A stretch of DNA of 62,293 nt, taken from assembly GCA_017554235.1 (NCBI GenBank), contig JAFZIV010000032.1, positions 1-62,293 on the forward strand. The letters are read 5' to 3'. Both the position numbers and the translations under genes were made by a program. This document shows, piece by piece, positions 17,693 through 58,851 of this stretch. This stretch comes from Selenomonadaceae bacterium. GTDB taxonomy: Bacteria; Bacillota; Negativicutes; Selenomonadales; Selenomonadaceae. Position 1 is the stretch's first letter; every line of letters starts with the position of its first letter. The notes below the pieces were generated by a model. It was not told where the DNA came from and did no database searches. It saw only the letters and a program-made list of their open reading frames with translations.

Positions 17693-17793
17693 AGGCGCAC
17701 AAGGACGTGCGCCCGTCCGCGCAAATCGCCGGATGCGATTTCAGCGGACATGTTTTCTTTGCTACTTTCTTTTGCGCCAAAAGAAAGTTGATT
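17693..17793 (-). repeat. Modular hairpin repeat, copy 3 (GC-rich type, inverted)
   Basis: On the minus strand: hairpin with stem CTTTCTTTTG and loop GCG, then a nested hairpin GTCCGC...AAATCGC...GCGATTT...GCGGAC, then GGGCGCAC-GTCCTT-GTGCGCC ending near 17694. It lies between divergent genes, 46 bp before the U32 start. An open reading extending upstream from the plus-strand gene runs through it by chance. Confidence 0.9.
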
Positions 17794-17904: not shown

Positions 17905-17939
17905 TGCAATACACATTAACAAAAATGGAGTTGATAAAT

Positions 17940-19769
17940 TTGGAATTGACGCTTGATGAGAAAATACAGCTTGAACAAGTTTACGGGCGACAAATTACAG
18001 GTACAGGCGGATATGCCCCAAACAGAATTGAAAAGATTGAAGAGTTGACTGCGGAAGAAAGCAGATTTTTTGCGCAGAAAAATTTTATATCGCCGTATTT
18101 TTCGGTGCAGACGCTGTACAAAATCAAGGGAGAAATTACGCCGATAAGATTTAATCGCGTAGTTCATGATATGATTAAATCTGATGAAATTTTCCGCTCA
18201 AATTTTTGTGAACTCGATAATAAGGTTGTAAAGATAGTTTTTGCTGAACGTCGCATATTGCCTGAAGTTGTCTACCGTACTTTTGCGCAGACTGAAGCAG
18301 ATGAAATCGACGATACTTTAACAAAAATTATGGAGGCTGACAGGCGCGTAAATTTTGACTTGAAATTCGGCAATTTAATCAGATTCGGAATTTTCAAGAC
18401 TTCTGAAAAAGAATTTGCCATACTCGTCACAATGTCTCAACTTATCGTGAACAGTTTTGATTATAAAAATTTTTTTGCGGCGGCATTGGAATCAAAACCT
18501 TATAAACATATGGAAAAAATTAGTTTGCCTCCGCAACCCGCGCAGATTGAAACGGCGATTCACGATTATTGGGCAAAATTATTAAAAGACTTGCCGTCGT
18601 TGCCTACACTTCCATACGTCAAGCCGTCCAACGCGCCGTATAATCCAAAAGCTTTCCGCGTCAAAATTCCCGCAGACATTTTATCGGATCTGCGCGAAAA
18701 AGCTAATTCAAGTCGTGTAATGTTGATGTCGATTCTGCAAAGTGCATGGGGATTTTTCCTGCAAGCGGTACGTAAACTTAATGATGTGATTTTCTGCCAA
18801 TTTAGTGCCTCTACTAAAAGCGATGAAAATTTTTCTCTTAATGTAATTCCCGTCCGTCAAAAAAGTTCCGGTTCAATGACAGTCGACCAAATTATTAACC
18901 AACAATTTCGTCAGCTTGTTGTATCTCAACCGTATGGATTTTGCGACTGGGAACTTTTGCAAGAAATTACTAACGGAAAAACTTTTGACCATTTTTTAAG
19001 CTTTGTAGACTTTAAGGGAACGCCGACTAAAACTTATTCGGAGACAACGGCGACAACTGATGGCGTGATTGTAACAAGTAATTCATGGGATCCGCAAGGT
19101 ATGAAATTGGGCGTCTATTTCCAGTACGCGACTACAACTTTATCTGTAACTTTCCTGTACGACGCCAATAAATTTTTTAAAAATATCGGCGAACGTTTTG
19201 CGAGAATTTATAATGTCGTCCTGAAACAAATGTTGGTATATTGGAATTCTAATTATTCGAGTTTTTCTACAAGACTTGTTGAAAAAATTAGATTTGAACT
19301 GGACGCCGATAAAAATATGCCCATTGTCGATGACAGAAAAATTATTTCAGACTTCATCGTAAAAAATCCTATTTTACAGGGCGGTACTACAGGGACAGTT
19401 GCATTTTTCTCGGACAGTGCCAAGCTTAAGATGATGTTTGAAGGCGACAGAATTTCCGGCGACATTTTAGAGAAAAATTTAATTTTTGTCGTAGAAGGAA
19501 AGTTGGTACGCAGTTTGGACGCCGGAGACGGTTGGTTTAAGGTGTTAGATATAGTTGCAACAGGCAGTTGGCTTAACGAAAATATTTTGCTTGAAGATCG
19601 CCGTACAACAATTTCCGCTGAAGTTTGGACGGAGCAGGCGAAAATTTTAATGATACCATTAGAGAAGGCAGAATCGCTTTTCATGAGCCGTCCTGACGCC
19701 GCTAAACCTTTCTTCACGCACATTTTAAAGCAAATGGAAAAATATCAGTTACTTTGGATTGAAAGCTAA
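17940..19769 (+). CDS. NRPS condensation-like domain fused to a cyclic nucleotide-binding-like domain
   Basis: About 609 residues. The first 440 follow the layout of a non-ribosomal peptide synthetase condensation domain: LTLDEKIQLEQVYG-type start, FNRVVHDMIKSDEIFRSNF, a central strand, YWAKLLKDLP, then a region like vLlaafa-lL-r (MLMSILQSAWGFFLQAV). The active HHxxxDG motif is replaced by MSQLIVNSFDY, so it is unlikely to condense peptides. The last 140 residues resemble the CRP cNMP-binding fold (GDRISGDILEKNLIFVVEGKLVRS, GSWLNENILLEDRRTTISAEVW). No adenylation or carrier domain is present. TTG at 17940 follows TGGAG; ATG at 17925 is the alternative. It abuts mqnA. Function unknown. Confidence 0.72.
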   Translation: MELTLDEKIQLEQVYGRQITGTGGYAPNRIEKIEELTAEESRFFAQKNFISPYFSVQTLYKIKGEITPIRFNRVVHDMIKSDEIFRSNFCELDNKVVKIVFAERRILPEVVYRTFAQTEADEIDDTLTKIMEADRRVNFDLKFGNLIRFGIFKTSEKEFAILVTMSQLIVNSFDYKNFFAAALESKPYKHMEKISLPPQPAQIETAIHDYWAKLLKDLPSLPTLPYVKPSNAPYNPKAFRVKIPADILSDLREKANSSRVMLMSILQSAWGFFLQAVRKLNDVIFCQFSASTKSDENFSLNVIPVRQKSSGSMTVDQIINQQFRQLVVSQPYGFCDWELLQEITNGKTFDHFLSFVDFKGTPTKTYSETTATTDGVIVTSNSWDPQGMKLGVYFQYATTTLSVTFLYDANKFFKNIGERFARIYNVVLKQMLVYWNSNYSSFSTRLVEKIRFELDADKNMPIVDDRKIISDFIVKNPILQGGTTGTVAFFSDSAKLKMMFEGDRISGDILEKNLIFVVEGKLVRSLDAGDGWFKVLDIVATGSWLNENILLEDRRTTISAEVWTEQAKILMIPLEKAESLFMSRPDAAKPFFTHILKQMEKYQLLWIES

Positions 19770-20615
19770 ATGGAAAATAAAGTTAATGTTGGTCATATAA
19801 ATTTTTTAAATGTCCTGCCGCTTAATTATTTTTACGCGATTGGCGGCGCGAAAGATTTTTCTTTGACAATGGGAGTTCCTGCCGTCATTAACGAAAAAAT
19901 TAAAAATGGTCTCCTTGACGTTAGTTTAATTTCTTCGATAGAATACGCGCGACAAAGTAAAAATTTATTGCTGATTCCTAAAATTTGTGTCCGCGCAGAT
20001 TCGGCGGTTACAAGTATAATTTTGTTGTCGAAAAAGCCGATTGATAAACTTGACGGTGAGCGCGTTGCCATAACAAATAAATCTGCTACGGCGCATTGTC
20101 TTTTGAAAATAATTTTGGCGGAGAGTTATCACGTCAAGCCGGATTATGTTGTAGAAAATCTTAGCGTGGAAAATCCCGTCCCTGAAGATTCGACTGCTGC
20201 GCTTTTTATTGGTGATGAAGCTTTGTACTTGCACTTACACAGGCGGGAAAATTTTCTGTACTACGATTTAGGCAATGAGTGGAATAAGTTGACGGGACGG
20301 CAAATGGTTTACGCGGTATGGGCGGCGCGGAAAAATTTTGTGCAGAATAATTCTGAACTTTTGAAGGATATTTGCAAAAAAATTCATAATGGTTTACAAT
20401 ACGGTCTGCAAAATAAGGCGGCGGCAATAAATTCTGTATTGAAAGATGTACCGTTTAGTTTTAAAGAGTTGGACGAATATTTAGGCGGCGTCATAAAGTG
20501 GAACTTGACGGCAGAAGGAATTGATGCACTGAAAATTTTTTACCAACTCGCGCATAAAAATAATTTATTGGAAGAAATTCCAAATATTAAATTATTTGAG
20601 GAGGATTTTTTATGA
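19770..20615 (+). CDS. mqnA: Chorismate dehydratase (futalosine menaquinone pathway)
   Basis: MqnA converts chorismate to 3-enolpyruvylbenzoate, the first step of the futalosine route to menaquinone. The 281 residues fit the MqnA/MqnD periplasmic-binding-protein fold: GHINFLNVLPLNY at the N-terminus, GVPAVINEKIKNGLLDVSLISSIEYA, ICVRADSAVTSIILLSKKP, and LFIGDEAL. The start codon follows directly after the stop of the condensation-like gene, so the two are coupled. No other mqn gene is in the window. Its own stop overlaps the next gene by four bases. Confidence 0.88.
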   Translation: MENKVNVGHINFLNVLPLNYFYAIGGAKDFSLTMGVPAVINEKIKNGLLDVSLISSIEYARQSKNLLLIPKICVRADSAVTSIILLSKKPIDKLDGERVAITNKSATAHCLLKIILAESYHVKPDYVVENLSVENPVPEDSTAALFIGDEALYLHLHRRENFLYYDLGNEWNKLTGRQMVYAVWAARKNFVQNNSELLKDICKKIHNGLQYGLQNKAAAINSVLKDVPFSFKELDEYLGGVIKWNLTAEGIDALKIFYQLAHKNNLLEEIPNIKLFEEDFL

Positions 20616-20989
20616 AACTTTTTTCGACGGAGGGTAGGTTAAATCGTGCGCCATTCATACTGTACCCAATGGGATTTGGAATAGTACTTACTGTACTGCT
20701 GGTAGTCTGGTTAGTTATGATTATGCCTGAAAGCGGTAACTTCGATGATGTTGATTGGGGAAGTGGTTTGGCACTTATCGGCGTGTTGTTTTTTTCAGTA
20801 ATTTGGTTTTTGTGGACAATAGCGTATGTCACGATGTGCATAAGGCGGCTTCATGATTTAGACAAGGACGGGCTTTTCGTAATAGCCGCTTTTGTTCCGA
20901 CAGTGAATTTTGTTTTTTATCTTTATCTTGCCATAGTTAAAGGTACTAACGGACCTAATAAGTATGGTGAAGACCCTCTCTTGAAATAA
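20612..20989 (+). CDS. DUF805 family membrane protein
   Basis: A 125-residue membrane protein with a conserved DUF805 layout: short N-terminal FSTEGRLNRAPFI motif, three or four hydrophobic segments, the loop RRLHDLDKDGLF, and a C-terminal KGTNGPNKYGEDPL motif. Function of the family is unknown to me. ATG follows GAGGAGG and overlaps the mqnA stop (ATGA). A paralogue follows. Confidence 0.9.
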   Translation: MKLFSTEGRLNRAPFILYPMGFGIVLTVLLVVWLVMIMPESGNFDDVDWGSGLALIGVLFFSVIWFLWTIAYVTMCIRRLHDLDKDGLFVIAAFVPTVNFVFYLYLAIVKGTNGPNKYGEDPLLK

Positions 20990-21007
20990 GTTAAAGGAGC
21001 AGAAATT

Positions 21008-21355
21008 ATGGATATTCAGAAAATGTTTTTTTCATTTGACGGAAGGTTAAATCGTAAGCCGTTTATCTTGGGTAATTTGGCTTTGTGGGTAATTTCCTCA
21101 ATATTCGGTTTTATTATGAACGGATCGGATAGTACTTTAATTTCCATTTTAGGGTTTGTAGTAGGATTGGCGTTAATCGCCGGTAGCATATCGTTGATAG
21201 TTAAAAGACTTCACGATTTGGACAAGAACGGGCTTTTCGCGTTAATTCTGTTAGTTCCGATTGTAAATTTTTTCTTTGAATTGTATCTGTTATTTGTGAA
21301 AGGTACTGACGGATCGAATAAGTTCGGCGAAGATCCTTTGCAACAAGCTTATTAA
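21008..21355 (+). CDS. DUF805 family membrane protein, second copy
   Basis: A 115-residue paralogue of the preceding protein: FSFDGRLNRKPFIL, three hydrophobic segments, KRLHDLDKNGLFAL and KGTDGSNKFGEDPL. It starts 18 bp after its neighbour with AAAGGAG as site. The pair probably arose by tandem duplication. Function unknown. Confidence 0.9.
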   Translation: MDIQKMFFSFDGRLNRKPFILGNLALWVISSIFGFIMNGSDSTLISILGFVVGLALIAGSISLIVKRLHDLDKNGLFALILLVPIVNFFFELYLLFVKGTDGSNKFGEDPLQQAY

Positions 21356-48413: not shown

Positions 48414-51400
48414 TTATTCTGTCTTACGTTCAATTAAACTGTTCGTTTCTAAGTCTGCATCATACATTTTGCCTTGAATAAGGAAACCTGCGCCGTTATG
48501 TCCGTCTACCGTTAATTCCGCCCCCGACGCTAAACCTATTTTCGTAGCTCCTGCCGTTACAGATAATGACGTTATATTATCCAGTGTCACGTCCATAAGA
48601 TTTATAAAATCATTCGCGGCAGCTCCGTATATCGTGTCAAATCCGGAATTGTAACCGAACATAAAACAATCTGCACCTGCTCCGCCTATCAGCGTATCTT
48701 CTGCGCCATTGCCTCCGTATATGCTGGTACCTTCATTACCTGCTATAATTACGTTCGACTGCTCATTTGCGCCGGAAATTACTTCGTAGCCGCTTACCAA
48801 CTGCCCGTTAATTTCGCCGCCACTTCCTGCCATATATACGTGTGCCCAGAAATTACCTTCGCCGTCACCAACGTCTATAATTTGGTCGCGTATACTCTGC
48901 AAAATCAAATTACCTTCACCTGAATTTATTATCACGTCATCATTTGAAAAGCTGAATCCTTCATACGACGCCGCTCCAAAATTCAACTTGTCGCCCGTCC
49001 TTGCATTAGTGATAACGCCTGAACCGTTAGTATAAAGGAAAGTGTCTTGTCCGTCGCCGCCTTGCAAAGTGTTATCGCCTTCGCCCTTGCCGCCATATAA
49101 ACTTGAACCACTCCCCGACGCTATTAACATATTCGACGCATTATTTGCACCAATTATTACTTCATATACCGATACGCCACGCCCGTCTAACGTTCCGCCT
49201 TCTGCCGCCATGTAACCATAAGCGATTATGTTTCCATTACCGTCCGTAAATGACATTATCTTCCCGCGTACATTTTCCAATGTTAAATTGCCGTCCGTCG
49301 TTGTCACTATGAAATTGTCCGCGCTTACACTTATACCAGTTACATTGCCTACTTCATTAAGTGAAACTGTTTGGTCTGGTGTGTAATTGCTTATAACCCT
49401 GTTTCCTCCACTATAACTGTATACGCCGCCTGTGCCGTCCTCACTGCTTCCCGTTGCCTCTATCGTTGATGTAGCATTTGGATTACTGCTACTTCCACCC
49501 GTTTGCGTTACTACTGTACTGCTCCCATTATTCGTAGAACTTGAACTGCTTCCACTGCTTGACGAACTGCTACTGCTACTTGATGATGAACTGCTACTCG
49601 GACGCGTTGTCGTCGTACTCGTTGATGAACCTGTGTTCCTAATTGGGGAACTTGAACTACTTCCGCTTGAACCGGATGAACCTGTATTCCGAATCGGCGA
49701 ACTTGAACTTGATGAACTGCTACTTGAACTTGAGCCACTGCCGCTTGAACTTGAACTACTGCCACTTGAACTTGATGAACTGCTACTTGAACTTGAGCCA
49801 CTGCCGCTTGAACCTGAACCACTGCTACTTGAACTTGAGCCACTACCACTTGAACCTGAACCACTACCGCTGGAACTTGAGCCACTACCTGAAGTAGTTG
49901 AGCTTGAACCACTGCCTGATGTAGTTGAACTTGAATCGCCACCCGCTGTCGTTGCAGTATAAATGTATGTATTAGGCGTTATAATTCCTGCCGCATTTTT
50001 AATCTTAATTTGCTTATTCGCCGCCGACGCCAATGTTACATTTCCTGAACCAACTTGCACAATAACATTTTTATTTATGTCCGCGTATATCGAATCTATT
50101 ACCCCGTCCGTTATGTGCAATACGTCGCTGGAATTGAAATTGGTAATTATATCGTTGCCGTCTCCGTCCGCATATTGGTAAGTATGCTCCGAACTGTCAC
50201 CCGTTATAGTGTCATTTCCTGTCCCGCCTATTACTGTAACGTCGTATGCGTCCGCGCCCAAGCTGATATGGTCATCACCATCACCCGCATATACCGTTAC
50301 GTGCGAGCCGCGATTCTTTATCAAGTCATTTCCTGCGCCACCGTCTACAGTTACCGTTGCGCCCGTATTAGTCACTGTGTCATTGCCGTCTCCTGCAAGC
50401 ACCAAAGCTTTATTCCCGCTGTTCGTTATCGCGTCATTTCCGCCTAATGCGTCAATTTCAAATCCTTCTTCAGCATTCGTCAACGTGTCATTTTCTTCCG
50501 TACCTGTTATTATCTTCTGCCCATATACCGCCGTTGTAACTGAACCGTCAGAATCCATTACAGTTATTTCTTTGTCCTTGTAATTTTGGAAGGTTATCGA
50601 CCCGTTATTTATGAAAACGATAACGTCATTGTCTATCAGTTTTGAACCCGTTATATATCCGTCAACTATCGAAACTGTATCGTAACTTGTGTAGCCTACA
50701 ATCAAATCATCGCCGTCGCCTGCGCTATATTCAAACACGTGCGCCGCGCTGTCATTGAAAATCGTATCATTTCCGCCTCCGCCAATTACCGTCGTATTCG
50801 TTACACCGGTTGAGGACGAGCCAAGCGATACCATGTCATTTCCTTCATCGCCTCTTACATATACGTCTGTACCTGTGCTGAAAATCTTATCATCGCCAAG
50901 ACTGCCATATACCGTTACGTAATTGCCCGTACTGTAAATGGTATCCATTCCAAGTCCGCCGTCTATCGTTACGTGCGAACCAATATTATTTATGCTGTCA
51001 TTGCCGCTTTCTCCAAGTGCCTCAACCTCTGAACCCGTGTTCAATATCGTATCGTCGCCCTGTCCGCCGTTAAGCGTCGCAGGTGAACCCGTATTCCTTA
51101 TTGAATCGTCTCCCGCATATCCGTGTATACGAGCATATCCTTCGCTGTTATCTATCGTATCAGGACCGCCCGTGCCGTTGATTATCACGCGATTATAATT
51201 TTCCGTCGTGACTGTCCCTCTCGAATCCTTTACCGTTATCTCAAGGTCTCTAGCATTTTTCAGCGTAACTGCGCCCGCGTTATCTTCATTGCCAATATAG
51301 AAAATTATATCCGTTCCGACTACAGTTGTATTTGTTATCGAGCCTTCAACTACTTGGAAAGTATCTTCTGCCTTAAATCCGTAAATAACATCATTACCGT

Positions 51401-54400
51401 CGCCTGCCGCATAACGATAAACATTTCCGCTATTATCCGCGTAAATTATGTCATCGCCCTTGCCGCCTTCTATCGTCACATTTTCCGCATCACTTGATAT
51501 ACTGATTCGGTCTGCGTCTCCTCCTCCGTTTGCCATTACACTTGAGCCGGTATTGATTATCGTATCTGTACCATTGCCGCCAGTAATCTTAACGTTTTCA
51601 CCGTCATTGCGAATTGTATTTGAACCGTCTCCGCCGATTATCGTTACGTTTGCCGCTATGTTCGCTACTCTGTTATCTCCCGCACCTGTGATTATCGTCG
51701 TATCAGAACCGCTATTTGTTATATCGTCATAACCTGCTCCCGCGTCTACATATGCTCCAACGCCGCTGTTGATTATCGTATCATTGCCGCTGTCGCCGTA
51801 AACGGTTGCTTTTGTTCCTTCGTTATTTATCGAATCATTAGCGTCTCCGCCGTAAACTACCGCCTTTTCTCCGGCGTTGCTTAATGTGTCTGCTTCGTTG
51901 CCGCCGTCAAGCGTTACACCCGTGCCACTATTAATTATCGTATCGTTGCCGCCGTATGCTTTTATCGTGTAATTCGGTTGCGTATTTACAAATTCATCAT
52001 CATCATTTGTGCCTTCTATCAGCAAGCGTCCGTAAATTTCGGTAGTGGTGTTGCCCTCCTTGTCCATTACCTGAATACCCTTGCCGTCAAAATCTTTTAT
52101 CCGAATCAGACCTTGATTAGCTCCGTCCGCAATATAAATTATTACGTCGCCGTTGTTTACGGTTGACCCTGAAATACTTCCTTCCGTTATATGGATTATA
52201 TCCGTTGGGCTGTAGTTTACAATGGTGTCGTCGCCGTCGCCCTGCGCATACTCAAATATATTCCCAAGTCCACTGCTGTAAATTACTTCATTTCCTTGAC
52301 CGCCTACTACCGTTACATATTTTGTATCTGCTCCTAAACTTATTTCGTCATCTTCTGCACCAGTGTCTATGTAGGTTCTATCAGCATTTTGAATAACATA
52401 ATCGTTACCCGCGTCGCCTATTATTGTCGTATCGCTAGATTCATTTATTATCGTATCGTCGCCCGAGCCGAGATTAATATACGCGTGGACAGCTTCTGCG
52501 CGGTTATTTATGCTGTCATTATCTGCACCGGCGTCAATGCTGACTGTCGACGCCGCATTTACTATCTTATCTGCTCCTGTTCCCGCACTGATTATAATGT
52601 CACTGCCGCTACTTGAAATCGAATCGTCTTCCGCACCCGCTGTTATCGTGACCAGCGAACCTCTTACCGCGATTATGTTTGCTCCATTTCCAGAGTTAAT
52701 GACAATGTTCGCCGCACCGTCTACCGCGTTAATGGTGTCATTGCCGTCGCCGCTGTCTATCGTGACATTGCTTGCTATATTGTGAATACTGTCTGCGCCA
52801 AGTCCGCCGCTTATTGAAACATATGACGCAGTATTTTTAATCGTGTCATCGCCGTTATCGCCGCCTGCCATTACACTTTCTGCTGTGTTTGTAATGTAGT
52901 CGTCATCATCGCCGCCCAATATCCTTGTGTTTGCCGCATTATTTGTTATCGTGTCATTGCCTGCAAGTCCCATTATATAGGCTCGCAGTCCGTCATTTGT
53001 AATTGTATCCGCACCTTCGCCGCCGCTGATTGTGACATTTTCGCCGCTGTAGTTGATTAAAGTATCGTCGCCAGCTCCTCCGTACATTGAAATTGAATCG
53101 GCACTATTATGAATGTAGTCAAGCCCTTCACCGCCGTCAATGGTTGCGTAAGTGGAGCGATTAACTATTGAGTCAGCACCCGCGCCGCCGACCATTGAAA
53201 CTTTTGAGCCGGTATTTTGAATGTAATCGTTACCGTCTCCGCCGTCAACAGTTACAGTATCTGCGGTATTTATAATGGTGTCCTTATCAGCGTCGCCAAA
53301 AATTTTTACTGCACCGCCGCTATTGTCTACGTAATCGCCGCCAGCTCCGCCGTATACCGTGACATAAGCCGCTGTATTCGTAATCGTATCCGCGCCGTCT
53401 AATCCGTCAATGGCAAGGGTAGCTTTATCGTTTTCCATAAAGTCATTTACGGAAGTTCCGCTACGATAAACTTGTATGCCGTCATGGAAAATTGTTTTAA
53501 CGCCGGTGTACTTTTCTCCGCTGATTGTTACGCCTTCTGATGCACGGTCTTCATCGGAATTTATGACTGTTACAACATTTTTAGCCGCTGAAGTTTTAGT
53601 AAAGCCTTCAAGATTAATTGTTCCTATTGTTGCACTTGCTGATTTTCCCGCATAACCTAATCCAATACCGACGCCATTTTCAGAGGATTCAGCTGTAAGA
53701 GTGGAGTCGCCGCCTATTGAGATATTACCGACAAAATTGTCACCGCCCGACGCATAACCGCTACCTACACCTGCGCCGTACTTCGCGGAAGTTGCCGTAA
53801 TGTTAGCCGTGCCATTAATGAGGATGTCCCCGACGGACGTTGATTTATTTTTATCTGAAATACCTGTACCGATTGCCGCGCCATTGGTTGAAGTAGCAGT
53901 GATAGTTCCTTTGTTAATGGTAATGTCGCCCGTTTCGCCGTACTTACCTGCACCAATACCTGCGCCTTCCTCACTGTTAGCAGTAAGTGTACCGCAAGAA
54001 ATTGTAATGTTTCCAACTTTGCCGCTTGTACCAGAACCAATGCCCGCACCTTCGGACGCGCCCGTAGAACCGCTTGCCGTATTGACAATGCCCGATGTTG
54101 AAATGGAAATATCGCCCGTCGTGCCGCTATTACCTGAGCCGATACCTGCGCCCGTCTTGCCGCCTGTAGCAGAAGTAATTATCGTCGCTCCGCTGATTGA
54201 AATGTTGCCGGTCTTACCTTTGTTACCTGAACCAATCGCCGCGCCATTAGTGCCGCCGTAAGCTTGCGTGATAGTTCCGCCAGTAATTGAAATGTTGCCA
54301 ACAGTTGAGCCGCCGCCCGAACCAATAGCCGCGCCGTTAGATGCAGCAGTAGCAGAGATTGTACCGCCGTTAATTACAATGTTGCCCGTCGTGCCCGTGT

Positions 54401-57400
54401 AAGTGTTGGGAGAAGAAACATAACCTGAACCAATCGCCGCACCGTTGGAAGAATTTGCAGTAATATTGCCGCCGCTGATTTTAATTTCGCCAGCGTCGCC
54501 GTTGTAGCTTGAACCAATCGCCGCGCCGTAATCAGAAGAGGCATTAATCGTTCCGGCAGTAATTGTCACGTTGCCCATTTTAGAGCCTGAACCGGCACCA
54601 ATAGCCGCGCCGTTAGTGCCTGCATTAGCTGTGATAGTTCCGCCGGTGATAACGAGATTAGCTTCAGAAGTTTCATTGGCATTAGTACCGATACCTGCAC
54701 CGTTTTGACCTGCATTGACGGTAAGAGAGCCGCCTTGACCTTGTAAAGAAAGTCCGCCGCCGATATGAATGACAGCGGCATTAGCGTCAGTGGTAGTCAA
54801 TTTAGTTTCAGTACCTGCAAGTTTAAGAATGTTAGAATCGCCTGAACCGAATGTAACGACATTTCCTGAAGTATTATTGATGATTAAATTGCGAAGAGTT
54901 AAATTGGCATTGTCAACGTTGGAAATGATATGGACGTTGGAAAATTCGTTCGGCAAGCCGTTAGCTTTGGTACCGCCGTAAATTGTCACGGCTTCGGTAG
55001 TATCAATTTTGATATTGCCGTTAAATCCCTCGTCAAGGGTAATAGTGCCGCCCTTAAGAATAGCTAAACTCCAAGTTGAACTGTCATCAGCTTGAAAAGT
55101 TCCGTCTTCAAATGCAAGTTTACTGCCGGAATAAGAAACAGAATTTTTAGAAGTGGGATTATAAACGGTAATGCCGGTGTCAGAATTGCCGTTGTTAATA
55201 ATGACGTTGGAAGTAACATTGGGAGTTGAAGTATCGCCCGACAAAGAAATAACCGAAGTATTAGAACTGTAATGTGCATCGATACCGACTTTGTGAACGG
55301 AAGTTGCTGTAACCTGCGCGTCATCACGAATAGTAATGTTGCCTAAAGAAGTAGTCGCCGCACCGGCACCGATACCTGCGCCGTAAGAATCAGATTTAGC
55401 GATAACGGTAGAAGTATCCTTAATGGTGATAGCCCCGACAGAGCCTGTTGCACCGGAACCGATAGCCGCACCGTTAGCAGTGGTGTTAGCAGTAATTTTA
55501 ACTTCATCAGCAATGGAAATATCACCGGCTGACGAATTATAACCTGAACCGATAGCCGCCGCGCCGTTAGAATAAGAATCATTTGTAGCTAAAGTATTTT
55601 TAGCAGTGACTTCAACAGAATCAGCGAATGAAATTTTGCCTACAGAACCGCTTGCACCTGAACCGATCGCCGCGCCATTACCTGAAGTCGTAGCAGTGAT
55701 AGTAGTGTTAGAACCTTCAAAGGAAACATTGCCTGCGCTTGAAGAATAACCTGAACCAATGCCCGCGCCGTGATAAGCCGTCGCATCGATTGTTGAATTT
55801 GAAATGGAAATATTTTCGACAGTAGAATTATCATTACCAGAACCAATAGCTGCGCCCTGTTGAGAGTTGGTAGCAGTGACATTAGAGCCGTTGATAGAAA
55901 TGTTAAGAGCAGTAGCCTTTTGACCTGCACCGATACCCGCACCTTCAGCAGAAGTGGCATTAATGGTTGAGGTATTGATAGAAATGTTATCCGAAGTAGA
56001 ATTTTCAGTACCGGAACCGATAGCCGCGCCGTTGGTAGAAGTAGCCTTAACATTAGAATCAGTAATGGTGATAGTGCCGACAGAGCCGCCTGTACGACCT
56101 GAACCGATAGCAGCACCGTCAGCGGCAGTAGCAGTAATAGTACCGCCTGTAATGGTAATGTCGCCGACTTGTGCGCCGTAACCAGAACCGATAGCCGCGC
56201 CCTGTTCGCCGGTAGCAATAATAGTGCCGGAAGTGTTAATGGTAATGTCAGGAGTTGACGACTTGTAATTGTAATCAGTACCGATAGCGGCAGAATTACC
56301 GCTTGCTGAAACGATTAATGAATCAGTAGAGGCAGGGTTGGTAATGGTGAGACCGCCGCCGACATTAATCGCCGCGTAGTTTGAATTAGTAGCAGTTAAA
56401 AGGTTATTGCCGGAGAAAGTAAGTTTATTTTCAGTGCCTGTTCCGAAAGTTATAATGTTTTCGGAAGTGATGTTAGCAGTTTCATTATCGACAGTAAGAT
56501 TTTTTATCGTCAAGTCAATGTCAGCGACAACAGCGGCAATTTTAATACCAGCGAGGTTGCCGGAAGTTTCGCCGTCAATGGTAACCGCGTCAGCAGTGTT
56601 GATGTAGATCGTGCCTGAAAAACCTGTTGGAATAGTGTAAGTACCGCTTGAATCGATAGTAATGCTTGCGGTTGAAGTTTCAGAAGTCCATTTACCGTCC
56701 TCAAAAGTCAGTGAACTTGAGCCGGTGTAAGTAGTGCCGTTAATCTCAACGGAGCGGGAAGAATCAGAACTTTCAATGACGACAGTGCTTTTAGTATCCG
56801 TATTTTTGTTAGAATTAAGTTTGATATTACCTGCGGAACTGTAACCCGCGCCCAATCCGATACCTACACCGTTAGAATAAGAAGTTGCAGTAACCTTCGC
56901 GTCATCGCCGATAGTGATATTGCCTACGGAACTTTCGCTTGAAGTGTCGGGAGCGTAACCGGCACCGATACCCGCGCCGTAACGAGTGGAAGAGGCGGTA
57001 ACCTGCGCGTGTGAATTGATAGTGATTGCGCCGGAATTACCAGAAACACCTGAACCGATACCTGCGCCGTAATTTGAAGACGCGGAGGAGACGACTGCAT
57101 TTGCATTGATGTTAATGCTTGAAACAGAACCTAAGTAACCTGAACCGATACCTGCGCCGTTATTGGTAGCAGACGCAGTAATCGTGCCGCCGGTAATGTT
57201 GATAGCACCGATTGAACCTTCTGCGCCTGAACCGAGTGCCGCACCGTTGGCAGAATAAGCATTGACAGTACCGCCTGAAATGGTCAAGCTTGCCGCGTTA
57301 TTATCTTCTTTATAGTCAGTACCGATAGCCGCCGCTGTACCATTAGCCCGCGCAGTTAAAGTACCGTCGCCGTAAATAGTGAGACCTTTACCGATATTTA

Positions 57401-58802
57401 TAGTAGCGGCAGTATTTGAATTGGTTAAGGTATTAGTGCCGATAACTTCTAAAACGGAACTGCTTTCAGTGCCGCCAAAATCAATAACGCTGTCAACGGT
57501 GTTAGTGACATTTAAGCCTTTGATAGTGAGGGTAACTTTTGAGGCATTAGCACCAACTTTGATGTAAACGTTTTGAAGGTTACCGGCTGATGAAGCGTCG
57601 ATAGTAACGGGAGCGGCAGTGTTAATTACGATAGTGCCGTTGTAACCTGAAGAGATTTTATAAGTACCGCTTGAATCGATAGAATAATTTGAGTTGCCGG
57701 AAAAAGTTTTGTCTTCGAGAATTTCAGATTCTGCAAGAGTTTCAGAACCTTGTTCAGCGAGATAGCGCAGGAACATATAACCGCCCGCGTAATTGGCAAC
57801 AGTGCCGCTTGAAGTTTTAGTCAAGCTTAAAGCACTTTGCAAAGAAGTTGGGTTATTGACGAGCGAAGTAATAGCAGATTTGCGGAAATCGTCAACGCCG
57901 TGAGTAAGTTCAGCAATACCCTCTTTGAAAAAAACCGGCAGTTTGTAAAAGTAATCAATTTTGGACGCCATAATAGCGTGAGTAAGTTCGTGGGCTAAAG
58001 TCCTGTCAAGGTAAATACTAGCACCATCGGTTGAACCGTTTTTATTATCAGCGGAAAGATTTTTGAAATATCTGTCCGTATTGATATGCAAAACTAAATC
58101 GGTAGTTTCGCCGGTTGAGGAATCATAAAAGTATTGAACGGCGGCGAGGGTTGAAGAACCGAGAATGCCATTTGTATCGAAATTTACTGTAATTTCGGTA
58201 GCAGTAGTATCAGAATCGTTGAAAGAAAAGCCGTAAGATTCTTCAATGAGATTCATACATTCATCAATCCACCAACTGTAAAGACCTTGAATAATAGTTT
58301 GTTGGTCAGTGGTTAAATCTTCTTTATCAGGAAAGTTGACGGTTAAGCCGCGAATAGTGAAGGAATTGCCGTCGGGGTAGGAAGAAGAACCGCTTTCAGG
58401 GACAATATCTTCAGCGTTTTTGGAAGAAGAGCCGCCCGCATCAGAGCCTGTAATTGCGCCGGTATCTTCATTGGTTAAGATAATTCCGCATTTATCCTTA
58501 AGAAAATCTGTTGTAGAATCAGCGGCTTTAAGGTCAGAAATCATTTGGTTTATTGCGTCCTGCGCGGAGTTGAAATTGGAGCAAGCCTTAACAGCCTCAT
58601 CAATAGCGGCAGAACCTTTTAAAGTGGTTTTATCGAGAGCCGCCATAAATTTTTGTATGGTATCGATAGGAGCTTTTCCGTCTTCATACAAATTCAGCGT
58701 TTCAGAAGTTGAATTATCCTGCGCGGAAATATTATCTCTATCAATCGTGTTATCGCCGTCGATAATACCGATAAATTCACTTAAAATATTTTTATTCGAC
58801 AT
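48414..58802 (-). CDS. Giant RTX-like secreted protein with N-terminal HExxH peptidase-like domain
   Basis: About 3462 residues, without a signal peptide. In order: a helical lead; a metallopeptidase-like domain with HELTH at about 271-275 and an FFKEGIAELTHG glutamate segment near 291-302; from about 370 to 1720 three blocks that each begin with an SGTYxIxxGxxGTIxINTxxxVTID segment followed by GAAIGSG repeats, a beta-helix-like array; from about 1785 to 2940 GGxGxDxI RTX-like repeats in four larger modules; a Ser/Gly linker at about 2950-3095; and two final RTX-type modules. This layout suggests calcium-folded export by a type I system, which is absent here. Start ATG at 58802 follows AGGTGA. 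Function is likely adhesion with proteolysis, which is inference. Confidence 0.85.
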   Translation of the reverse strand: MSNKNILSEFIGIIDGDNTIDRDNISAQDNSTSETLNLYEDGKAPIDTIQKFMAALDKTTLKGSAAIDEAVKACSNFNSAQDAINQMISDLKAADSTTDFLKDKCGIILTNEDTGAITGSDAGGSSSKNAEDIVPESGSSSYPDGNSFTIRGLTVNFPDKEDLTTDQQTIIQGLYSWWIDECMNLIEESYGFSFNDSDTTATEITVNFDTNGILGSSTLAAVQYFYDSSTGETTDLVLHINTDRYFKNLSADNKNGSTDGASIYLDRTLAHELTHAIMASKIDYFYKLPVFFKEGIAELTHGVDDFRKSAITSLVNNPTSLQSALSLTKTSSGTVANYAGGYMFLRYLAEQGSETLAESEILEDKTFSGNSNYSIDSSGTYKISSGYNGTIVINTAAPVTIDASSAGNLQNVYIKVGANASKVTLTIKGLNVTNTVDSVIDFGGTESSSVLEVIGTNTLTNSNTAATINIGKGLTIYGDGTLTARANGTAAAIGTDYKEDNNAASLTISGGTVNAYSANGAALGSGAEGSIGAINITGGTITASATNNGAGIGSGYLGSVSSININANAVVSSASSNYGAGIGSGVSGNSGAITINSHAQVTASSTRYGAGIGAGYAPDTSSESSVGNITIGDDAKVTATSYSNGVGIGLGAGYSSAGNIKLNSNKNTDTKSTVVIESSDSSRSVEINGTTYTGSSSLTFEDGKWTSETSTASITIDSSGTYTIPTGFSGTIYINTADAVTIDGETSGNLAGIKIAAVVADIDLTIKNLTVDNETANITSENIITFGTGTENKLTFSGNNLLTATNSNYAAINVGGGLTITNPASTDSLIVSASGNSAAIGTDYNYKSSTPDITINTSGTIIATGEQGAAIGSGYGAQVGDITITGGTITATAADGAAIGSGRTGGSVGTITITDSNVKATSTNGAAIGSGTENSTSDNISINTSTINATSAEGAGIGAGQKATALNISINGSNVTATNSQQGAAIGSGNDNSTVENISISNSTIDATAYHGAGIGSGYSSSAGNVSFEGSNTTITATTSGNGAAIGSGASGSVGKISFADSVEVTAKNTLATNDSYSNGAAAIGSGYNSSAGDISIADEVKITANTTANGAAIGSGATGSVGAITIKDTSTVIAKSDSYGAGIGAGAATTSLGNITIRDDAQVTATSVHKVGIDAHYSSNTSVISLSGDTSTPNVTSNVIINNGNSDTGITVYNPTSKNSVSYSGSKLAFEDGTFQADDSSTWSLAILKGGTITLDEGFNGNIKIDTTEAVTIYGGTKANGLPNEFSNVHIISNVDNANLTLRNLIINNTSGNVVTFGSGDSNILKLAGTETKLTTTDANAAVIHIGGGLSLQGQGGSLTVNAGQNGAGIGTNANETSEANLVITGGTITANAGTNGAAIGAGSGSKMGNVTITAGTINASSDYGAAIGSSYNGDAGEIKISGGNITANSSNGAAIGSGYVSSPNTYTGTTGNIVINGGTISATAASNGAAIGSGGGSTVGNISITGGTITQAYGGTNGAAIGSGNKGKTGNISISGATIITSATGGKTGAGIGSGNSGTTGDISISTSGIVNTASGSTGASEGAGIGSGTSGKVGNITISCGTLTANSEEGAGIGAGKYGETGDITINKGTITATSTNGAAIGTGISDKNKSTSVGDILINGTANITATSAKYGAGVGSGYASGGDNFVGNISIGGDSTLTAESSENGVGIGLGYAGKSASATIGTINLEGFTKTSAAKNVVTVINSDEDRASEGVTISGEKYTGVKTIFHDGIQVYRSGTSVNDFMENDKATLAIDGLDGADTITNTAAYVTVYGGAGGDYVDNSGGAVKIFGDADKDTIINTADTVTVDGGDGNDYIQNTGSKVSMVGGAGADSIVNRSTYATIDGGEGLDYIHNSADSISMYGGAGDDTLINYSGENVTISGGEGADTITNDGLRAYIMGLAGNDTITNNAANTRILGGDDDDYITNTAESVMAGGDNGDDTIKNTASYVSISGGLGADSIHNIASNVTIDSGDGNDTINAVDGAANIVINSGNGANIIAVRGSLVTITAGAEDDSISSSGSDIIISAGTGADKIVNAASTVSIDAGADNDSINNRAEAVHAYINLGSGDDTIINESSDTTIIGDAGNDYVIQNADRTYIDTGAEDDEISLGADTKYVTVVGGQGNEVIYSSGLGNIFEYAQGDGDDTIVNYSPTDIIHITEGSISGSTVNNGDVIIYIADGANQGLIRIKDFDGKGIQVMDKEGNTTTEIYGRLLIEGTNDDDEFVNTQPNYTIKAYGGNDTIINSGTGVTLDGGNEADTLSNAGEKAVVYGGDANDSINNEGTKATVYGDSGNDTIINSGVGAYVDAGAGYDDITNSGSDTTIITGAGDNRVANIAANVTIIGGDGSNTIRNDGENVKITGGNGTDTIINTGSSVMANGGGDADRISISSDAENVTIEGGKGDDIIYADNSGNVYRYAAGDGNDVIYGFKAEDTFQVVEGSITNTTVVGTDIIFYIGNEDNAGAVTLKNARDLEITVKDSRGTVTTENYNRVIINGTGGPDTIDNSEGYARIHGYAGDDSIRNTGSPATLNGGQGDDTILNTGSEVEALGESGNDSINNIGSHVTIDGGLGMDTIYSTGNYVTVYGSLGDDKIFSTGTDVYVRGDEGNDMVSLGSSSTGVTNTTVIGGGGNDTIFNDSAAHVFEYSAGDGDDLIVGYTSYDTVSIVDGYITGSKLIDNDVIVFINNGSITFQNYKDKEITVMDSDGSVTTAVYGQKIITGTEENDTLTNAEEGFEIDALGGNDAITNSGNKALVLAGDGNDTVTNTGATVTVDGGAGNDLIKNRGSHVTVYAGDGDDHISLGADAYDVTVIGGTGNDTITGDSSEHTYQYADGDGNDIITNFNSSDVLHITDGVIDSIYADINKNVIVQVGSGNVTLASAANKQIKIKNAAGIITPNTYIYTATTAGGDSSSTTSGSGSSSTTSGSGSSSSGSGSGSSGSGSSSSSSGSGSSGSGSSSSSSSSSSSGSSSSSSGSGSSSSSSSSSSSSPIRNTGSSGSSGSSSSSPIRNTGSSTSTTTTRPSSSSSSSSSSSSSSSGSSSSSTNNGSSTVVTQTGGSSSNPNATSTIEATGSSEDGTGGVYSYSGGNRVISNYTPDQTVSLNEVGNVTGISVSADNFIVTTTDGNLTLENVRGKIMSFTDGNGNIIAYGYMAAEGGTLDGRGVSVYEVIIGANNASNMLIASGSGSSLYGGKGEGDNTLQGGDGQDTFLYTNGSGVITNARTGDKLNFGAASYEGFSFSNDDVIINSGEGNLILQSIRDQIIDVGDGEGNFWAHVYMAGSGGEINGQLVSGYEVISGANEQSNVIIAGNEGTSIYGGNGAEDTLIGGAGADCFMFGYNSGFDTIYGAAANDFINLMDVTLDNITSLSVTAGATKIGLASGAELTVDGHNGAGFLIQGKMYDADLETNSLIERKTE
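49520..49945 (-). repeat. Ser/Gly low-complexity linker of the giant gene
   Basis: Six-base units encode SSSGSG-type sequence; SPIRNTGSS occurs twice. It joins the RTX array to the C-terminal modules. Repeat boundaries are approximate. Confidence 0.8.
49970..53420 (-). repeat. RTX-like repeat array of the giant gene
   Basis: Runs of GGxGxDxI units (for example GGAGADSI, GGEGADTI) spaced by about 20 residues. Four longer modules each end in an FEYxxGDGDDxI strand, a DVIxxI stretch and a Y-rich strand ending I-x-GT. Boundaries approximate. Confidence 0.8.
53640..57600 (-). repeat. GAAIGSG repeat array of the giant gene
   Basis: Dozens of units of about 22-25 residues, each close to ITxTAxNGAAIGSGxxGSVGxITIxxGT. 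Three carbohydrate-binding-like blocks restart the array near 57.65, 56.62 and 55.03 kb. Boundaries approximate. Confidence 0.8.
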
Positions 58803-58851
58803 ATCTATCACCTATTCTGTATCTAAAAATTTTCGAGCTAAATTTGAGTAA

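Follow-up and report, generated by a model that had tools for sequence, protein, structure and literature searches.

Condensation (C) domains of nonribosomal peptide synthetases (NRPS; PF00668) are recognised by the catalytic motif HHxxxDG, and their fold is also found in another role. The X domain of the glycopeptide NRPS machinery recruits P450s; it is not known to have a cyclic-nucleotide-binding (CNB) fold or associated partner-switching genes. It is described as a C-fold recruiting module with HRxxxDD (PMC11546977), i.e. the fold was kept, the active-site motif was changed and the domain is used for protein recruitment. CRP-like folds are those of the Crp/Fnr regulators (PF00027). A CNB fold fused to an acyltransferase occurs in mycobacterial Pat (Rv0998), but there the enzyme is an active, cAMP-responsive GNAT and not a C domain.

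Sigma factors and diguanylate cyclases are the known targets of partner switches. In RsbU-RsbV-RsbW (PMC8256260) and in SiaABCD (PMC8457831) a SpoIIE-type phosphatase, an RsbW-like HATPase and a STAS protein are encoded together. Outputs that are not sigma factors include SiaD, which is bound and activated by unphosphorylated SiaC, and HsbD, which is controlled by HsbA (PMC8457831), as well as SypA, whose target is unknown (PMC8256260).

We describe here a protein, C-CNB, in which a C domain is fused to a CRP-like CNB fold. The parts are known and the combination is, as far as searched, new. A condensation-CNB fusion, alone or with SpoIIE, STAS, MATE or HATPase genes, was not described in the literature searched (most subscription journals fell outside it), and neither did the literature searched on Selenomonas partner switching, condensation-domain pseudoenzymes and CNB-acetyltransferase fusions describe C-CNB, in agreement with the initial annotation of this DNA, which knew of no system of this form.

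The C-CNB gene and its two domains

The gene was found in a contig of a Selenomonadaceae bacterium, of which the whole stretch analysed (62,293 nucleotides) is called here the window. It lies at 17940..19769 on the + strand, ends with a TAA codon at 19767-19769 and codes for a protein of ca. 609 aa. Its start is near 17925-17940, the candidates being ATG 17925, TTG 17931 and TTG 17940, and two close homologues start three residues before a LELT/LKLT motif. A longer ORF of 678 aa, from ATG 17733, was rejected as being too long for the true gene, because its first ~56 residues recur elsewhere in the genome, mostly interrupted by stops. This false 5' extension contains, upstream of the C-CNB gene, a palindromic dispersed repeat, CTTTCTTTTGCGCCAAAAGAAAG (17765..17787, + strand). 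The 23-base palindrome has nine copies in the genome (the window and eight other places) with at most one mismatch, and the reversed-pattern control had none.

The C domain covers approximately residues 27-447 (18018..19280, +) and the CRP-like fold approximately residues 473-603 (19356..19748, +), both limits being approximate and those of the C domain taken from profile positions. Pfam searches with the focal ORF gave Condensation at 1.2e-23 (84 bits against a cut-off of 30.6) and cNMP_binding at 7.5e-4 (19.9 bits, under the cut-off of 27.5). A family profile built from 26 members matched NRPS chains in the PDB with a best value of 5.9e-49 and Crp/Fnr regulators with a best value of 1.8e-10. 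Since distant members clear both Pfam cut-offs unaided, the weak CNB match of the focal copy reflects real homology. Two AlphaFold models from six-sequence alignments, one full-length and one restricted to the CNB half, were uninformative (pLDDT 34 and 40), so that both folds rest on sequence profiles. At the positions of HHxxxDG the focal protein reads SQLIVNS (residues 166-172, nt 18435-18455, +). Neither this protein nor, by phmmer, any ORF of at least 80 aa in the window has adenylation or carrier domains. C-CNB shares with NRPS C domains the fold and the overall profile, but it is free-standing and joined to a CNB fold. The initial annotation had read this gene as a condensation-type fold without HHxxxDG joined to a CRP-like fold, and as not being a peptide synthetase. 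All three points hold, and the check it proposed, profile searches with each half, came out strong for the condensation half; for the CNB half the family profile gives the support, while the focal copy by itself stays below the cut-off.

C-CNB departs from the Crp/Fnr regulators in its C-terminus and may also do so in its cassette. No HTH family was matched, and the protein ends at residue 609, only ~6 residues beyond the CNB match. Alignment by eye places the stretch GSWLNENILLEDRRTT (residues 542-557) at the phosphate-binding cassette, the canonical form of which we take to be GE...RxA. In this by-eye alignment of 72 members the Gly position was Asn in 67, the following Glu was kept in 40 and was Pro in 21, and the basic position was commonly Arg, Lys or Gln. 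A search for class III nucleotide cyclases found one in 8 of 37 genomes and none in the genome of the window. With a cassette that appears atypical and no class III cyclase found, sensing of cAMP or cGMP by C-CNB is unsupported.

A family of the Selenomonadaceae

From the sequence comparisons, the C-CNB fusion is a real family, carried by a rumen bacterium and many of its relatives. It was detected in 58 of 66 genomes of the window's genus (E <=1e-6, fragments counted). In the class, 118 of 380 genomes gave a match at 1e-25 with a distant 628-residue member as query. In eight of these (G047, G051, G059, G293, G295, G297, G301 and G318) the match stopped at query residue 444-469 and sat in frames of 1507-5172 aa (in G295, one frame of 648 aa at a contig end); given this short reach and the long frames, we take them for NRPS condensation domains. 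This leaves 110 of the 380 genomes as carriers of the fusion, 107 of them of the window's own family, G027, G161 and G224 with partial matches only, plus G037, G048 and G304. In a sample of 398 genomes of the phylum searched at 1e-32, matches extending past the C domain were found only in the window's family (6 genomes), and in four other genomes they ended by residue 509 within frames of 1277-6412 aa. Both the class and the phylum searches scored at most three candidates per genome, and copies in NRPS-rich genomes may escape them. Five relatives with the fusion are MAGs of uncultured Selenomonadaceae or Selenomonadales; goat rumen is the origin of three, and one carries the label Reindeer. 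A misread NRPS fragment or a frameshifted pseudogene was also considered and was rejected, dozens of homologues of ~600 aa having open frames.

Neighbourhoods were compared in a set of 72 loci, L072 and L129 being uncounted as they hold no member of the focal cluster. Forty of the 72 were chosen from the rows of the class search before their neighbours were known, and are a subset of those rows. Two NRPS pieces of L130 were left out of the family counts and, together with the short L071, out of the tree, which is a maximum-likelihood tree of 72 rows, made by a quick method and with several long branches.

Partner-switching genes beside C-CNB

Of the 38 loci outside the genus (the two NRPS pieces of L130 are excluded), 17, from 8 of 15 genera, have a SpoIIE, STAS or HATPase_c_2 gene within 5 kb of C-CNB, and 15, from 7 of the 15 genera, have one within 500 bp. 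At all 17 linked loci these genes were co-directional with C-CNB; two of the 17, L120 and L122, are weak cases, the genes being separated from C-CNB by 2.4 kb that contains opposite-strand ORFs. The observed 15-17 of 38 compare with ~2% expected for a random 5-kb neighbourhood, a figure estimated from the three partner-switching loci found in the 2.27-Mb focal genome, with a binomial that ignores relatedness. The other 21 loci outside the genus had no partner-switching gene within 5 kb, and the four loci from the deep carriers G037, G048 and G304 all belong to these negatives. Within the genus such a gene was present within 5 kb, on the same strand, at 2 of 35 loci and absent from the remaining 33 (the window and fragments at contig edges are counted among these 35 rows). 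On the tree the linked members fall in the deep g43 branch and in the sister clade of the genus's main clade.

The neighbours in other genera comprise HATPase_c_2 kinases, STAS proteins and SpoIIE phosphatases, the last with either a dCache-HAMP or a 5TM sensor. In L143 they form an operon in the order MATE-HATPase fusion, dCache-HAMP-SpoIIE, HATPase_c_2, C-CNB and STAS. Such loci resemble RsbU-RsbV-RsbW and SiaABCD in encoding phosphatase, kinase and STAS protein together, but the 73 stretches (the 72 loci plus the window) yielded no ORF for a FliA-like sigma factor, and the MATE transporter is itself fused to HATPase_c_2. C-CNB may take in these loci the place of the sigma factor.

Two MATE-type transporters with a C-terminal domain like the HATPase_c_2 anti-sigma kinases were seen near SpoIIE phosphatases, at L143:10538-12289 (-) and L060:7773-9587 (+), the HATPase match of the latter being below the cut-off; a fusion of transporter and kinase is unusual. 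In addition, a protein of ~206 aa (L143:5042-5662, -), with members of the same cluster in L106, L108 and L134, is found near STAS and has no Pfam match at 0.01. Inspected by eye, it looks like a degenerate anti-sigma kinase.

An unlinked module in the focal genome

At the focal locus no SpoIIE, STAS or HATPase_c_2 gene stands beside C-CNB, and the module is found on other contigs. Contig C36 has STAS, HATPase and SpoIIE genes in a row, and its STAS and HATPase are closest, among the fetched loci, to those flanking C-CNB in L119 and L128 (58% and 54% identity). The best NCBIfam match of the C36 phosphatase was SiaA, far below the cut-off. Two further partner-switching loci of this genome are on contigs C56 and C2. 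In the 66 genomes of the genus, the C36-type HATPase and C-CNB were found together in 50, the HATPase only in 2, C-CNB only in 8 and neither in 6 (Fisher p 0.0007, uncorrected for relatedness, and some of the genomes with C-CNB only are incomplete), the C36-type being separated from weak HATPase matches by a cut that we set in the gap from 2e-39 to 3e-20. Only two sigma factors with region 3 were found in the focal genome, an RpoD-sized frame of 464 codons and a FliA beside chemotaxis genes, and no sigma target of SigB or SigF type was found in this assembly (94% complete). FliA is a possible sigma target of the module.

C-CNB as a proposed component of a partner switch

We propose that C-CNB is a disarmed C domain joined to a CRP-like fold and acts within a partner-switching phosphorylation module as one of its components, a reading that we consider evenly balanced between right and wrong. 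The two domains, the lost motif, the existence of a family, the recurrent gene linkage and a matching unlinked module in the focal genome were observed; a physical interaction, the direction of signalling, the ligand and the output are inferred. A membrane phosphatase (dCache-HAMP-SpoIIE) would read a signal from outside, and this phosphatase and an RsbW-like kinase (HATPase_c_2) would set the phosphorylation of the small STAS protein. The free partner, either STAS or the kinase, would then bind C-CNB, most likely through the CNB half, and binding would switch C-CNB, the output here standing where a sigma factor otherwise would. The role of the C half is probably to bind, either a protein or a ligand resembling a carrier, an acyl group or a peptide. 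As outputs other than sigma factors are known (SiaC-SiaD, HsbA-HsbD and SypA) and the C36 phosphatase has SiaA as its best match, far below the cut-off, C-CNB is proposed to be the partner set by the STAS-kinase pair. In a partner switch that does not act on a sigma factor, its place is probably that of the output, and the regulatory role that the initial annotation had suggested for the protein is probably right.

The same linkage at 17 of 38 loci would be expected if C-CNB were placed on the input side, where it would sense a ligand in the cytoplasm or serve as a scaffold, and in this way set the kinase or the phosphatase. CNB folds are commonly sensory, and two potential ligand-binding folds are present in one protein. 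Nevertheless, the phosphatases examined already have sensor regions of their own (dCache or 5TM), and no other obvious output gene recurs by eye beside the module, where FliA-like genes were also absent (73 stretches). We regard an input role as unlikely.

Loss of the catalytic motif

The complete HHxxxDG was found in none of the 72 members. The first His was never kept, the second His and the Gly were kept in 3 members each and the Asp in 30. The second His was replaced by Gln in 55 of 72, and elsewhere by Glu, Arg, Gly, Lys, Leu or Ser in some members. The best preserved variant is that of G304, PHITFDG, followed by PQ..ADG in G037 and in one G048 copy and PQ..ADN in two g33 members; most others retain less. 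Judged by these variants, the loss of the motif looks graded across the family. A Gln at the second His is no proof of inactivity, since the C domain ORF18 of streptothricin has HQxxxDM and altering this Gln lowers activity (PMC11546977). The Gln conserved in C-CNB could represent residual chemistry.

C-CNB might even be a working acyl- or aminoacyl-transferase in which Gln stands for the catalytic His, controlled by the partner switch or by its own CNB domain. Besides the frequent Gln and the precedent of ORF18, the locus of G304 speaks for it, as here (L124:1-8539) the C-CNB with PHITFDG adjoins an NRPS, a carrier protein and a phosphopantetheinyl transferase (PPTase). The first His is, however, absent throughout, Asp and Gly are mostly lost, the Gln position is itself variable, and matches to carrier proteins and PPTases were restricted to L124 and L130 in the 73 stretches, those to adenylation domains to the same two loci and one opposite-strand ORF of L055. 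On balance we find a working transferase decidedly unlikely.

The neighbourhood of G304 suggests a possible ancestral state, perhaps still catalytic, although it is a single genome on a long branch. We advance only tentatively, as a possible course of events, that an NRPS C domain and a CRP-like fold were fused in an NRPS-linked ancestor, that catalysis was lost and that, across the Selenomonadaceae, a partner-switching module then took up the protein, either as its output or as an arm for ligand binding.

Possible hitch-hiking and the mqnA neighbour

The fusion might also have a role of its own, unrelated to partner switching, and simply lie near these genes by inheritance. The genus would fit such hitch-hiking, as the linkage is missing in 33 of 35 loci and the gene is retained, but the gene orders and the phosphatase sensors (dCache or 5TM) vary across the 8 linked genera outside it, and we hold this explanation to be very unlikely.

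In the window C-CNB abuts directly another gene, mqnA (19770..20615, +), the product of which matches VitK2_biosynth at 1.1e-58. The TAA of C-CNB at 19767-19769 touches the ATG of mqnA at 19770, exactly as the initial annotation had stated. In the 66 genomes of the genus, both genes were found in 46, the fusion only in 12, mqnA only in 4 and neither in 4 (Fisher p 0.09); these are drafts, many of them incomplete MAGs, so that single absences of mqnA are weak but the pattern is consistent. One of the 12 genomes with the fusion only, G012, has a fragment of 60 aa, and five of those with the fusion and no detected mqnA (G019, G024, G028, G033 and G034) belong to the same tree clade of 11 rows. 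Of the 46 genomes with both, 7 show the two genes side by side (G000, G002, G011, G013, G025, G193 and G209). The initial annotation would have counted a linkage unique to this genome against its proposal; taken literally this is not the case, as 7 genomes share it, but the adjacency is confined to a small clade, and the tie to menaquinone that the annotation had suggested is not supported. A ligand-sensing regulator linked to menaquinone synthesis through mqnA is hardly credible, and coupling was rejected on linkage and co-occurrence, since, despite the abutting codons and the seven adjacent pairs, 39 of the 46 drafts that contain both genes do not show them adjacent, mqnA was not detected in 12 of the genomes that carry the fusion, and none of the 38 loci outside the genus has mqnA within 5 kb. 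On these comparisons we judge the adjacency incidental and not a functional coupling.

Directly 3' of mqnA the window has two tandem DUF805 membrane proteins (20612-21355, +), and members of the DUF805 cluster are also found 3' of mqnA in L067, L068 and L069. Farther along, at 48414-58811 (-), the window codes for a protein of 3465 aa with one HExxH motif and 16 GGxGxD matches, for which the NCBIfam matches, to flagellinolysin and RTX families, were below the cut-off.

Implications

If the proposed role is true, a partner with the condensation fold would be a new kind of target for partner switches. The NRPS fold would have a signalling role, in a protein family that is common to one bacterial family (107 genomes), and a piece of assembly-line machinery would have been turned into a signalling part. 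It would also provide a testable function for a gene that sequence libraries class only as an NRPS fragment.
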